The notes under the pieces were generated by a model. It was not told the DNA's origin, ran no database searches, and worked only from the letters and a program-made list of their open reading frames with translations. A stretch of DNA of 64,000 nt from an uncultured Caulobacteraceae bacterium (GTDB lineage Bacteria; Pseudomonadota; Alphaproteobacteria; Caulobacterales; TH1-2), in NCBI GenBank assembly GCA_937967425.1, contig CALBST010000117.1, positions 1 through 64,000 of the forward strand, given 5' to 3'. Numbering within the stretch: position 1 is the stretch's first letter; every line of letters begins with the position of its first letter. Positions 27,583 through 53,409 of this stretch are shown here, piece after piece. A program made the position numbers and the translations under genes.

Positions 27583-28305
27583 CTAGATGTCGCGCTTGCG
27601 CGCCAGCGTCATCAACGTCCAGCCCCAGCCAAGACGTTCCTTGAAACGCTTTGGGCCCTCGCCGAACAGCGCCTTCAGCGCTTTGTCCACTTTGTTGTTG
27701 GAAACCAGCTTCCAGGGCAAACGATTGGCGCGCGGCGTGATCGCGTTGAGCTCCCACACATCAAAGTGAGGCGACAAGATCGCCTTGAGTTCATCGCGAT
27801 CCACCCATTGGCGAATTGCGCCTTGCTCGGGCGGCGGCACGCGATTTAATCGCTCCAGCACCGGGCGGTTTTGCGTCGCCAGCATCAGCATGCCGCTGGG
27901 CCGCAAGAGCTGCGCAAGCTTGGCCACGAACGCGGGTTGATCGGCGACGTGGGAGAGCACTTCGAGCGAAACGACAACGTCGAACGAGGACGCCTCAAAT
28001 GGCAAGCTCATAAAATCGCCGGCGACAAAGCGCACCCGCGGCATCCGCTCTTGCGCGCGCGCCAGAACGTCTGCCGAGAAGTCGGTTCCAGTCACCCGGC
28101 CGAAGCTTACAAGCGAGGGACAGAGCCACCCTGCTCCACACCCGACATCGATGATGTCAAGATCGGTGCGGCCCAAGCGCTCAAGCCAGGCCACGACGTA
28201 ATCGCGTTGATCGGTGCTCACTTCGCCCAAGCGCTGCTCGCGCGTCTCCGCGTTCCATCGTTCCCAGGCCGCGCGCTGCGCGGCGAGCGGCGGCTGATCG
28301 GTCAC
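27583..28305 (-). CDS. Class I SAM-dependent methyltransferase inside the czc operon
   Basis: 240 residues. Motif [18 protein letters not shown] (52-68), acidic [15 protein letters not shown] after strand 2, [13 protein letters not shown], and [16 protein letters not shown] as motif IV, then [19 protein letters not shown]. It is UbiG/UbiE-like in form. The ATG overlaps the czcA stop (ATGA) and HupE follows after seven bases, so it is made as part of the efflux operon. A close paralogue lies at 43025-43735. No substrate can be read from the sequence; the position in metal operons is the clue. Confidence 0.9.
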
Positions 28306-31300
28306 GAGGCGCCTCCCGTTCCGGTCGGAGCGGCCGGGGTCTGTTCCCAGCTTTCGAGTTCTTGCTCTGCGTCGCGATGAACCAGGCGATAGAGCGCGGG
28401 CAGCACCAGCAGGGTGAGGATGGTTGAGGAGATAATCCCGCCGATCACCACCGTCGCCAAAGGCCGTTGCACCTCGGCGCCGGCGCCGACATTGAACGCC
28501 ATCGGGATGAAACCCAAACTGGCGACCAGGGCGGTCATCAGCACAGGCCGCAACCGCGTCAGCGCGCCCTCACGTATGGCGTCTTCGACAGAACTGCCCT
28601 CCGCACGCAGCGAGCGGATGAAGGAGAGCATGACGACGCCGTTCAGCACCGCCACACCTGAAAGCGCGATGAAGCCCACCCCCGCCGAGATCGAGAGCGG
28701 CAATCCACGCGCTAGCAAGGCGAGCACGCCGCCGGTCAATGCCAGCGGCACTCCGGAGAAAACAATTGCCGCGTCCTTGGCCGAGCGGAAGAGCGCATAG
28801 AGAAGTCCAAAGATCATCAGCAGCGCCAACGGCACGACCAGCGCCAAGCGCTGGGCGCCCGAGATCAATTGCTCGAAGGTGCCACCATACTCGACCCAAT
28901 AGCCTGGCGGCAGTTCGACCTCCGCGCCGACGCGGCGCTGCACGTCTTGCACAAACGAGCCCAAGTCGCGGCCCCGCACGTTGGCGGTGATGACCACACG
29001 GCGCTTGCCGTTCTCGCGACTGATCTGATTCGAACCGACCGAGAGTTCGATCGTTGCAATCTCGTGCAAAGGCACAAAGCCTCGAACGCCATCAGCGGCG
29101 CCCGGTAGCGGGATACGAAGTCGGCCGATTTCATCGACATCCTGACGAATTTGCTCGGGGAGACGCACGACCACATCGAAACGGCGATCGCCCTCGAAGA
29201 TCTGGCCGGCCACCGCGCCGCCGAGCGAAGCACGAAGCGTGTCTTGGACATCGGAAACATTGAGGCCAAACCGCGCCAAAGCGGCGCGATCGGGTGTGAC
29301 TTGAAGCACCGGCAAGCCGGTAATCTGCTCGACCTTGACATCCTGCGCGCCCGGAATAGCCGCAACAATGTCTTCGATCTCCGCGCCCGTCGCCAGCAAG
29401 GCATCAAGATCGTCGCCGAAGACCTTGACTGCGACGTCGGCGCGAACACCTGACAGCAATTCGTTGAATCGCATCTGGATGGGCTGGGTAAATTCGTAAT
29501 TGTTGCCTGGAATTTCTTGAACCGCCGCCTCCATTTCGGCGAGGAGATCGGCGCGAGAGCGCCAGCCATTCGGCCATTCGCTGCGCGGTCGAAGGAAAAT
29601 GAAGGTGTCCGCCACGCTCGGCGGCATCGGATCGGTCGCCACTTCAGCGGTGCCGATCTTGGACACCACGCGCTCTACTTCTGGAAACTGGCGAAGGCGC
29701 TCTTCGAGCTGGGTTTGCATCTCGATGGCTTGGCCCAAACTGGTGCCGGGAATGCGCAAAGCGTGGAGCGCGATATCGCCCTCGTCCAAGTTCGGAATGA
29801 ATTCCGATCCCATGCGTGAGGCGATGAGAGCAAACACGACGACAAGACCGACAGCGCCGGCGACGACCAGTGTGCGCGCCCGCAGCGCCCATTCAAGCGC
29901 AGGCTCGTACCATCCGCGCGCCGCACGCATGACCCGGCTTTCCTTTTCGTCAACCTTCCCGGTCACGAACATGGCGACGGCGGCAGGCACAAAGGTGAGC
30001 GACAAAATGAGCGCCGCTGTCAGCGCGAACACGACCGTGAACGCCATCGGATGGAACATTTTGCCCTCCACGCCTGAGAGCGCAAAGATCGGCAGATAGA
30101 CAAGCGCGATAATCATCACACCGAAGATCGAAGGGCGGATCACCTCAAGGGTGGCGCTTTCGGCGAGTTGAAAGCGCTCGTCGTGCGTCAGCAATCGTCC
30201 GAGCCGGTGCTGCTCCATGCCGTAACGCCTGAGGCAATTTTCGACGATGATGACCGCGCCATCGACGATCAGTCCAAAGTCGAGCGCGCCAAGACTCATG
30301 AGATTGCCGGACACTTCATTTTGAACCATGCCGGTGATGGTGAGCAGCATGGAGAGTGGGATGACCGCCGCCGTGATCAGCGCTGCACGGATATTGCCGA
30401 GCAACAAGAAGAGCACGACAATGACAAGGAGCGCGCCTTCGAGCAGGTTCTTCTCAACCGTTTCGATGGTGCGGTCGACAAGCTCGGTGCGGTCATAGAC
30501 CGGTGATGCGATCACACCCTCTGGTAACGCGCGGGAGGCCACTTCGAGGCGTTCGGCAACGGCCTGCGCGACCTGCCGGCTATTCTCGCCCATCAGCATA
30601 AAGACGGTGCCGAGCACGACTTCACGCCCGTTCTCGGTCGCGGCGCCGGTGCGAAGTTCCTCGCCCATGATGACGTCGGCCACGTCCACGATGCGCACGG
30701 GCACGCCGTTGCGATTGGCGACAATGATGCGCTGAAGGTCTTCGATGCCCTGCGCTTGGCCTTGCGAACGCACCAGCAATTGCTCGCCATAGCGCTCGAC
30801 ATACCCTGCGCCGACATTGGCGTTGTTCTCCGCCAGCGCTTCGATGACATCGTTCATCGTGAGGCCAGACGCAGCCAAACGATCAGGCCAAGGCGTAACG
30901 TGATACTGGCGTTGGTAGCCGCCGATCGTGTTGACCTCGGTGACGCCGGGCGTGTTGCGCAATTGCGGGCGGATCACCCAATCTTGCAGCGTGCGGAGAT
31001 CTTCAGGCGTCCATTCCGAGCCATCGGGCTTGAGCGCGCCCTCTTCGGCTTCGATCGTGTACATGAAGATTTCGCCGAGGCCGCTGGCGATAGGGCCGAG
31101 TTCTGGCTCGACGCCTTCGGGCAATTGGCTGCGCACCGCGAGCAAGCGTTCATTGACGAGCTGACGGGCAAAGTAGATGTCGGTGCCGTCGGCAAAGACG
31201 ACGGTCACCTGGCTCAAGCCATAGCGAGAGATCGACCGGGTGTATTCAAGGCCGGGGAGCCCCGCGAGCGCGGTCTCAACTGGAAACGTCAAACGTTGCT

Positions 31301-52096: not shown

Positions 52097-52783
52097 ATGG
52101 CGAACACGAAGTCGATGGTCCGCATTGCGGCAGTGCTGGCCGTGGCGTTTTCGCTACTGCTGCTAACCCCACAAATCTCTTTCGCTCACAGCGGCGAGCA
52201 ACATCCCCCGCAAGCAGCGCAAACCGACGCATCGCAGGCCGCACCCGAACACGACATGGGCGCGATGCAGCCCGGCGAAATGACATGGCCGACCGCTGAA
52301 GGCGCGGGCGGTATGGTGATGGATCATGATGCCCGCCCGACCACCATGTCAGGCAGGATCATACGCTGGCTTGGCGTGTGGCACCCAGCCGTCATCCATT
52401 TTCCCATCGCCTTGCTGCTTACCGTCGCATTCTTGGAAGCGATGGCCGCCATCCGTCGCAAGCCCATCTACGCGGCCAGCAATAAGATCTTGCTTGCTGT
52501 GGCCACGCTCGGCGCTTTTGCCGCCGCGCCATTGGGTTGGGCGAATGCAGGTCTTCCTGCGGCTGATGATGAGTCCGCGCTTGTTCTGCACCGGTGGATC
52601 GGCACCGCGATCCCGTTCCTCATCGCCTTCGTTTGGTGGCTCAAAAAACCGGTCGACGAGGCCGCCGTTCGCCAAGGCAGCCGCTTCTACGAAACAGTCC
52701 TAGCTTTGAGCGTGCTGGTGATCCTCGCTCAGGCCTATCTTGGCGCGGAAGTGACACACGGCGCCGGACACTTGGCGTTCTGA
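52097..52783 (+). CDS. DUF2231 membrane protein with a His/Met-rich N-terminus
   Basis: 228 residues. Signal or first helix (AAVLAVAFSLLLLTPQISFA), a periplasmic segment with HSGEQHPPQ and HDMGAMQPGEM, then four helices: WHPAVIHFPIALLLTVAFLEAMAA and others. The HPAVIHFPIALL motif marks the DUF2231 family, for which haem or redox roles have been suggested. It is in the copper operon and ends one base into the ATG of the following methyltransferase (TGATG). Confidence 0.85.
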   Translation: MANTKSMVRIAAVLAVAFSLLLLTPQISFAHSGEQHPPQAAQTDASQAAPEHDMGAMQPGEMTWPTAEGAGGMVMDHDARPTTMSGRIIRWLGVWHPAVIHFPIALLLTVAFLEAMAAIRRKPIYAASNKILLAVATLGAFAAAPLGWANAGLPAADDESALVLHRWIGTAIPFLIAFVWWLKKPVDEAAVRQGSRFYETVLALSVLVILAQAYLGAEVTHGAGHLAF

Positions 52784-53409
52784 TGAACGACGATGCGTTC
52801 GGCGCTCTGCGTGCGGCGTATCGCGACTATTCTACTTCGTATCGGGGAAAGCGGCGTTCGGCCGACGTTGAGATTTGGACCGGATCGATAACGCTCGACT
52901 GGCTCGCTCGGCTGCAGCCGCTCAGTGTCGATATCCTCGATATCGGTTGCGGCGGCGGCTGGCTTGCGGGACGCCTCACAGCCTATGGGCCCGTAAGCGG
53001 AATCGATGATGGCGATGTTGGACGCTCGCTTGGGATTCGCGCGCTCGCGCGAGGCGAGTATCACGCGGGCGACAAGAACGATCGCTTGCTGCCTCGGTAC
53101 GTAACAGGTGGCGCCCCCTCACCTCGCAGCAAAGATGGTTTCAGCGTCGCGCTGGCACTCAATGCGCCCACATTACCTAGCGATTTTTTCCGCTTCTGCG
53201 CGAGCATCGCCGACATACTTGCTCACGGCGGCTGGTTCGTATGGAGTCCCCCGACACATCAGGCCTTCAACGAAACCGAGGATTGGGGCGCGGTGCTCGG
53301 CGCGAACTTCCAGCTTATAGACAAAGCTGTCATGCCTTCGTTGCTTGGCGATGCGGCATCCGATCCAGCTGCTGCGCTTATCTTGCTGGCGCAAAAGCAA
53401 TCGCACTGA
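52783..53409 (+). CDS. SAM-dependent methyltransferase-like protein at the end of the copper operon
   Basis: 208 residues. Motif I is VDILDIGCGGGWLAGRL, with an acidic Asp in SGIDDGDVG. A loop with GGAPSPRSKDGFSVALALN and the ILAHGGWFVWSPPTHQAFNE strand then fit a class I methyltransferase fold. The later part is shorter than in the czc-operon enzyme, and no close paralogy is visible. The ATG shares one base with the DUF2231 stop (TGATG), so it is coupled. It is the third methyltransferase joined to a metal operon in this window. Confidence 0.75.
   Translation: MNDDAFGALRAAYRDYSTSYRGKRRSADVEIWTGSITLDWLARLQPLSVDILDIGCGGGWLAGRLTAYGPVSGIDDGDVGRSLGIRALARGEYHAGDKNDRLLPRYVTGGAPSPRSKDGFSVALALNAPTLPSDFFRFCASIADILAHGGWFVWSPPTHQAFNETEDWGAVLGANFQLIDKAVMPSLLGDAASDPAAALILLAQKQSH

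Follow-up and report, generated by a model that had tools for sequence, protein, structure and literature searches.

Resistance of bacteria to copper and zinc has been described as sensing, efflux, oxidation and sequestration of the metal. A search of literature listings yielded no published description of the association between methyltransferases and metal operons that is reported here. Here we analysed a stretch of 64,000 nucleotides, below called the window, from an uncultured Caulobacteraceae bacterium (assembly GCA_937967425.1, contig CALBST010000117.1, positions 1 to 64,000 of the forward strand). In the window, three genes for class I methyltransferases dependent on S-adenosylmethionine (SAM), here named MT-A, MT-B and MT-C, lie in metal-resistance operons. 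The closest described regulatory system is CnrYXH of Cupriavidus metallidurans, and the gene set which diverges from MT-B has the same order of sensor and sigma factor genes. For C. metallidurans, promoters other than those of RpoD are reported to precede regulatory and efflux genes (PMC9045368). We suggest, with a probability of roughly 0.38, that methylation of the cell envelope, most likely of a surface glycan, has been recruited into a copper regulon governed by an extracytoplasmic function (ECF) sigma factor.

MT-A (27583..28305, minus strand; 240 amino acids; Methyltransf_11, 81 bits) follows the genes of a CzcB/CusB-type membrane-fusion protein (31497..32741, minus; HlyD_D23) and of a CzcA/CusA-type resistance-nodulation-division (RND) efflux pump (28302..31484, minus; ACR_tran, 1091 bits), whose plasmid relatives are named CusA/CzcA. 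The GTG start of MT-A is placed inside the czcA stop (GTGA) with an overlap of the reading frames by four bases, and seven bases after the stop of MT-A a HupE/UreJ_2 membrane protein follows (26847..27575, minus; PF13795, 182 bits). This arrangement supports a predicted translational coupling of MT-A to the Czc-type pump. ARAGORN also called a tRNA-Arg inside czcA (28494-28583), which Rfam did not report and which is probably false.

MT-B (43025..43735, minus; 236 amino acids) is a paralogue of MT-A with 58% identity over 233 residues. It is the first gene of an operon which continues with a DUF411 protein (42538..43005, minus; domain match, presumed TTG start) and a polysaccharide pyruvyl transferase (open reading frame 41364..42734, minus; PF04230, 95.6 bits). 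The true start of the latter is probably inside this frame, the closest homologues listed having 387-400 amino acids. A MerR-type regulator (40934..41380, plus; domain match) lies between this operon and a heavy-metal P-type ATPase (38261..40828, minus; E1-E2_ATPase, HMBD and YHS). Divergent from MT-B is the cnrYXH-like set. It starts with a small open reading frame (43779..44153, plus), which probably codes from about position 43875 and by its position may encode a CnrY-like anti-sigma factor. Then follow a Metal_resist (CnrX-like) sensor protein (44150..44587, plus; PF13801, 55 bits), an ECF sigma factor, CnrH-like by position (44584..45144, plus; Sigma70_r2 and r4_2), an AraC-type regulator (45137..45877, plus; HTH_18) and finally a protein of the fatty-acid-hydroxylase family (open reading frame 45774..46784, plus; domain match, true start probably at about 45936). 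A sigma factor with both sigma domains and a Metal_resist sensor are thus encoded in one operon, as in CnrYXH-type systems.

MT-C (52783..53409, plus; 208 amino acids) is a remote relative, recognised by BLASTP and by the family profile. It stands behind a CusF-type periplasmic copper protein (51697..52029, plus, in the open reading frame 51634-52029; PF11604, 98 bits) and a DUF2231 membrane protein (52097..52783, plus; domain match), with whose stop its start shares one base (TGATG). Further upstream a CopA-type multicopper oxidase (47456..49297, plus; domain match) and the copper resistance protein CopB (49294..50472, plus; PF05275, 297 bits) are encoded. The similarity of MT-C to the MT-A/B family is weak (31% over 147 amino acids, E = 2e-13) and the family profile gives 39 bits versus 382-390 bits for MT-A and MT-B. 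MT-C keeps the glycine-rich SAM motif, lacks the later family motifs and has no Pfam or NCBIfam match. The positions and overlaps reported for the three genes in the initial annotation were all recovered, as was its view that the enzymes at 27583 and 43025 are paralogues.

The family is accessory and patchy. It is present in 17 of 398 genomes of the order (28 hits), in 15 of 30 genomes of the genus (26 hits) and in 2 of 385 genomes of a sample of the class, one of them being G001. This genome is the nearest to the window (21% of the window's sampled words in common) and harbours three full family members within about 95 kilobases (kb), two of which share 95% and 98.7% identity with MT-A and MT-B. 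The neighbourhoods of the 28 hits were searched with tblastn over up to about 10 kb per side, as far as the contigs reach. As metal markers we used the heavy-metal efflux (HME) RND pump, CusB, P-type ATPase, multicopper oxidase, CopB, CusF, CopC, DUF411, DUF305, Metal_resist and HupE, with thresholds of E = 1e-10, at least 28% identity and a distance of at most 5 kb. Sources of the marker sequences, including the glycan markers used below, were the window itself and loci that carry the family (CopC and one ATPase from L098; glycan genes from L025, L028, L031, L040, L104 and L141). Twenty methyltransferases of the same genus served as controls. These were the first 20 distant ones by E-value lying at least 20 kb from a contig start and were picked by hand.

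A metal marker is found near 21 of the 26 family members of the genus and near none of the 20 controls; in the sister genus one of two members has such a marker (G223). When the distance is widened to 10 kb and the identity threshold dropped, a 27% match to the RND pump turns up in three controls, in one of them at a distance of 1.0 kb. Five members of the genus are without marker (G113:C1, G272, G034:C3, G252 and G277:C435). Some contigs are short (L088 3.9 kb, L096 3.2 kb) or end beside the methyltransferase (L108), and our simple gene caller misses genes. Since the family members are related to each other, the 21 cases are not independent events. The linkage of the family to metal genes in the genus is well supported. 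We note that the family match in G277:C435 (L088, the 3.9-kb contig) contains a TAG stop; this copy is possibly decaying.

Four operon architectures were distinguished, not all genes being present in each locus. In architecture A the order is czcB-czcA-methyltransferase (window, G001, G078, G198 and G123); HupE follows only in the window and in G198, the czcA match in G078 covers only 187 residues, and a small open reading frame separates czcA from the methyltransferase in G198 and G123. In architecture B the methyltransferase is followed by DUF411, mostly with the pyruvyl transferase, and then by the MerR regulator and the P-type ATPase, and the operon is divergent from the sensor operon (window, G001, G188, G237, G113, G277, G059, G108 and G034). 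Architecture D comprises a CMD-family protein, a P-type ATPase, a protein just under the cut-off for Peptidase_M23, a small protein, the methyltransferase, CopC, DsbB and DsbA (G001, G078, G198, G183, G059, G277 and G223). In architecture E a PepSY gene is divergent from DUF305-methyltransferase-CusF-DUF2231-multicopper oxidase-CopB (G218, G188 and G123). A tree of 46 rows sorts the members for the most part by operon type, with one group of czc members (100/99) and another of E members (100/100). The B and D members fall into a common group (99/99), which includes three rows without metal genes. Type B requires three changes on the tree and type D two, a pattern which fits an exchange between operon types without proving it. 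The 27-row group which joins nearly all metal members is weakly supported (89/64). The small protein directly upstream of the type-D methyltransferase occurs in four loci (L098:10273-10662 and relatives) and has no Pfam match.

An alignment of nine B-type loci revealed a conserved divergent pair of the motif TGAGGG-N14-TGCGTA upstream of MT-B, one copy pointing toward MT-B and one toward the sensor operon; some copies have a mismatch. In the window both are exact (43783..43808, minus, and 43822..43847, plus). With one mismatch the motif also occurs ahead of the multicopper oxidase (47391..47416, plus) and ahead of CusF-DUF2231-MT-C (51627..51652, plus; under the matrix threshold), and these two sites were found again in related loci. 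It directly precedes the type-E methyltransferase in L111 and L112 (exact) and in L109 (one mismatch), and also the divergent PepSY gene. Allowing two mismatches there are 17 matches in the window, compared with a mean of 4.0 and a maximum of 8 in shuffled sequences. The exact motif occurs 23 times in the family-bearing loci, 14 of these being the B-type source sites, and not at all in the 20 control loci, which have three copies with one mismatch, one of these with the 14-base spacer. A matrix trained on the 14 B-type sites (score at least 11) matches 62 times, its training sites among them, in the 593 kb of loci with the family, versus 6 times in 386 kb of controls and 6 times in the reversed family-bearing loci; some of its matches lie ahead of no called gene. 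As expected for a CnrYXH-type system, the motif is common to the sigma operon and to putative target operons and is also seen ahead of further metal genes, in many cases with a single mismatch. The natural reading is an autoregulated ECF promoter, which would be recognised by the sigma factor encoded next to it. These sites support a putative copper or metal ECF regulon which includes MT-B and, by operon position, MT-C.

We then considered which genes face the sensor. Of 35 places in the genus with a Metal_resist sensor the best 25 were examined (E up to 7.5e-45). The nearest recognisable divergent gene belongs to the methyltransferase family in eight of them. In G078 a TIGR04325 methyltransferase (161 bits, cut-off 80) takes the place of MT-B. 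A pyruvyl transferase followed by DUF411 is found once (G059:C6), DUF411 seven times, a Met/His-rich lipoprotein three times, and five cases are other or unresolved. Toward DUF411 there is no site with at most one mismatch in L109, L112 and L152. Of the seven loci facing DUF411, G218 and G123:C2 carry a type-E methyltransferase with its own site about 5 kb away. The sensors of the nine methyltransferase-facing loci are 77-98% identical to that of the window, those of the other 16 at most 70%. This sensor lineage holds methyltransferases from different branches of the tree plus the unrelated one. A pyruvyl transferase lies within 5 kb of eight of the nine B-type methyltransferases; in G108 it lies beyond the sensor operon and not behind the methyltransferase. 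Two subfamilies are represented among the pyruvyl transferases near sensor loci, with 35-40% identity from one to the other and 80-97% inside the group of the window; one of the two also occurs in the other sensor lineage (G059:C6). The fatty-acid hydroxylase follows the sensor operon in eight of ten loci of the lineage (window, G001, G078, L089, L095, L102, L107 and L108); the contigs of the remaining two (L094 and L096) end before this position. In the 16 other sensor loci, several of them short stretches, the hydroxylase was not found. Small Met/His-rich lipoproteins with repeated SHEEMM-like stretches were seen divergent from the sensor in L158, L161 and L163.

Outside the genus we evaluated 22 loci. 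The pairs L039/L087 and L149/L029 are one locus each and were counted once; the weak partial matches L042-L052 (n = 11) and L011-L024, duplicates of loci from the genus and its sister genus, were left out. Glycan genes are close to 11 of the 22 loci, ten being detected by tblastn within 10 kb and one, on a Shinella plasmid, by its annotation, and to none of the 20 controls. Each of the ten matches a marker taken from another locus, L035 only through a 27% match to the aminotransferase. Recurring neighbours are a pyruvyl transferase, an apiosidase-like protein, a PIG-L deacetylase, a class III aminotransferase, a C-methyltransferase, a flippase and a glycosyltransferase. Metal-linked genes were found at three of the 22 loci, all actinobacterial, a weak 28% match of L027 to multicopper oxidase not being counted. 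The Xylanimonas locus has DUF305, an ArsR-type regulator, cation efflux and a P-type ATPase about 6 kb away. DUF305 is a domain associated with copper, and it is the only metal-linked gene on the Rhodococcus plasmid pRaL13f (L140), which encodes the methyltransferase and an apiosidase-like (DUF4038) protein. Plasmid pC of R. pyridinivorans (L141) combines a metal P-type ATPase and a metal-sensitive regulator with DUF4038, the methyltransferase and a pyruvyl transferase. A second R. pyridinivorans plasmid has the last three genes and, in the part viewed, no gene annotated as metal-related. With 32-34% identity between the Rhodococcus enzymes and MT-B, this pairing would be either old or repeated. 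The plasmids of L140 and L141 were typed as conjugative. Homologues scattered without metal genes, which the initial annotation had named as a point that would speak against it, are the usual case outside the genus, whereas the members of the genus are mostly metal-linked.

Could the methyltransferase genes simply be passengers of mobile metal islands without a role in metal stress? Their patchy distribution, the loss of most metal linkage outside the genus and the 16 of 25 sensor loci in which the nearest divergent gene is not a methyltransferase would agree with this. However, the coupled reading frames, the common ECF-type motif, the four architectures, the absence of metal linkage in the controls and the one promoter-facing position held by two methyltransferase families speak against mere hitchhiking. 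In addition, comparison of the window with its relatives gave ratios of nonsynonymous to synonymous substitution rates (dN/dS) of 0.06-0.08 for MT-B, 0.14-0.29 for MT-A and 0.22-0.38 for MT-C. The ratios for czcA (0.013) and the multicopper oxidase (0.035) are stricter. These values indicate that the methyltransferase genes are kept by purifying selection, MT-C less strictly so. We regard the passenger explanation as improbable.

What might the enzymes do? MT-A and MT-B are assigned to one uncharacterised class I methyltransferase family. Both exceed the curated cut-offs of several generic class I models with a Rossmann-like fold, and the AlphaFold model of MT-A has a mean confidence (predicted local distance difference test, pLDDT) of 89.5. 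Of the 38 and 35 NCBIfam models matched by MT-A and MT-B, respectively, the best 25 were compared in each case, and none of their cut-offs is reached. An identity with UbiG (TIGR01983; 68.6 and 63.1 bits, cut-off 102.95), BioC (TIGR02072; 67.6 and 65.1 bits, cut-off 184.95) or ArsM (35.2 and 25.0 bits, cut-off 263) was rejected. No family member exceeds 72.6 bits with the UbiG model, and 26 of the 30 genomes of the genus have a separate UbiG gene over the cut-off (223-256 bits). Orthology to this housekeeping enzyme, which the initial annotation had considered as a counter-argument, is thus not observed. The family profile detects 1166 protein clusters at E up to 1e-30 among 8000 scored candidates; many of the 120 that were listed bear the name benzoquinol methylase in their source.

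That the enzymes methylate a metal or metalloid directly, in the way ArsM methylates arsenic, is very improbable. Arsenite methyltransferase models do appear in the match list, but they stay far under their cut-off, and MT-A has only two cysteines, both of which are located in the SAM-binding stretch. Detoxification by methylation is not known for copper, zinc or cobalt. Methylation of a metal protein encoded in the operon with them (DUF411, CusF, CopC, HupE or the pump) deserves somewhat more credit, yet we consider it quite unlikely. Metal proteins are the neighbours common to the four architectures and the fold matches include the peptide N-methyltransferases NTMT1/NRMT1; on the other hand the partner varies with the architecture, the fold match is unspecific and most of the candidate partners belong to families of exported or membrane proteins.

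A more serious competitor to surface glycans is methylation of a membrane lipid, a quinone or a small metal ligand, which would protect the membrane or sequester the metal, the glycan genes being incidental neighbours. The hydroxylase ends the sensor operon in all eight methyltransferase-facing loci with enough sequence, and this count shifts weight from the glycan reading toward the lipid or quinone. UbiG and BioC are the best models under threshold, and the first eight solved structures ranked by sequence include UbiG and the N-methyltransferases of phosphoethanolamine and phosphatidylethanolamine. Such matches are, however, generic for class I methyltransferases, the cut-offs are missed and UbiG is encoded separately. 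Moreover, the hydroxylase is tied to one sensor lineage and may reflect one event, and no gene for quinone or metallophore synthesis was among the scanned neighbours. We judge this explanation to be rather unlikely, although it is the strongest of the alternatives. The initial annotation had proposed a lipid, quinone or metallophore as substrate; the lipid is backed by one fact, the hydroxylase gene, nothing specific speaks for quinones or metallophores, and the other neighbours favour glycans. Overall we favour glycans over lipids by a modest margin.

Several observations weigh against methylation of a glycan under control of a copper regulon. Half of the loci outside the genus have no visible glycan gene, and no glycan marker lies within 5 kb of the methyltransferase in architectures A, D and E, which also suits a lipid or quinone. 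Neither the motif nor the matrix scan revealed a site facing the methyltransferase in the czc operons (A), and architecture D has weak sites only, inside the coding end of the gene preceding the ATPase (L098, L099 and L106). Between the window and G001, MT-A is less constrained than czcA (dN/dS 0.29 versus 0.013). The fold is silent on the substrate because many unrelated class I methyltransferases match MT-A equally well (Z). The replacement of MT-B by a TIGR04325 enzyme is a single case, and the B-type sensor loci look like one lineage, so that their features are not independent events. Finally, the hydroxylase is compatible with envelope remodelling in general, and with a lipid substrate no less than with a glycan.

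Nevertheless, we suggest that methylation of a surface glycan could be brought into the metal response in the following steps. A methyltransferase family which elsewhere occurs near surface-glycan genes, or in a context that tells little, would have been drawn into the metal-resistance operons of the genus. Upon metal stress, the presumed signal, the CnrYXH-like sensor would free the ECF sigma factor. The freed sigma factor could then fire the TGAGGG-N14-TGCGTA promoters and thereby increase the amounts of the sensor, the multicopper oxidase, CusF and the methyltransferase. This last enzyme would act in the cytoplasm on a sugar of a surface polysaccharide or on a glycan precursor, and in the B operon methylation might go along with the addition of pyruvyl ketals. 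Charge and metal binding of the envelope would be altered and the surface might bind or admit metal differently, presumably to the benefit of the cell.

The regulon may, again tentatively, provide copper resistance with a third, envelope-modifying arm beside efflux and oxidation. This proposal is consistent with a single promoter position, divergent from the sensor, at which methyltransferases of either kind (MT family or TIGR04325) interchange and pyruvyl transferases are found, with the hydroxylase at the end of the sensor operon, and with the presence of methyltransferase and pyruvyl transferase parts beside metal genes also on an actinobacterial plasmid.

The initial annotation had viewed five methyltransferases and metK as one theme of methylation tied to metal operons. 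The tie itself stands, being found repeatedly, in four architectures and partly with the ECF-type motif, but its scope is narrower. The pair at 3185-4434 consists of two overlapping generic class I methyltransferases outside the MT-A/B family (32 bits with the profile for one, none reported for the other). The gene metK (36337..37557, minus) is about 700 bases from the P-type ATPase and coupled to none of the methyltransferase genes; we consider it a neighbour and not a part of the system. All 30 genomes of the genus have metK. G188 and G113 carry an additional copy on the contig of MT-B, at a distance of about 5 kb and about 40 kb, respectively, and G001 has one metK only, on a contig other than that of MT-B. 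The extra copies may answer a greater need for SAM. One-mismatch ECF-type sites occur about 400 bases upstream of metK (37964-37989) and at 38113-38138 (plus), the latter with no called gene behind it.

Downstream of MT-C the window encodes a polysaccharide flippase-type protein (53611..55170, plus; Polysacc_synt_3, 248 bits; under the NCBIfam cut-offs). It is followed by a glucuronyl-esterase-like gene (PF22244; 55441-56735), with a one-mismatch ECF-type site at 55441. The first 76 or so residues of this gene are in a different frame from the rest, unlike in G001, which points to a frameshift or a sequencing error.

A biosynthetic methylation step thus appears to belong to a metal regulon, as judged from its precise promoter motif, from the replacements at a single position and from paralogues spread over four operons. 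This gives a lead to the function of a family of more than 1000 protein clusters, many of the listed ones having general or ubiquinone-methylase names only, and a concrete prediction, which can be tested by expression and envelope analysis.

In comparison with known systems, the window set differs from CnrYXH of C. metallidurans in that its companion genes are mostly copper genes and in that the divergent promoter faces DUF411 and methyltransferases. The sigma-F factor of Caulobacter is also an ECF sigma factor of metal stress, but its promoter (reported as GTAACC-N16-CGAA; PMC3511200) is unlike the motif in the window. MT-A has the class I fold in common with UbiG, its nearest curated model, and stays about 30 bits or more short of the cut-off. 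ArsM is likewise a SAM enzyme adjoining metal-resistance genes, whereas MT-A is far under its cut-off and has two cysteines only. The TIGR04325 (LIC12133) methyltransferases have no meaningful similarity to MT-B (E = 4.9), although one of them holds its position in G078. The pyruvyl transferase of the window shares the PF04230 domain with CsaB/WcaK-type enzymes but reaches only 76.6 bits with the CsaB equivalog (cut-off 213), and it differs from the known polysaccharide pyruvyl transferases in that its gene sits in a metal operon.

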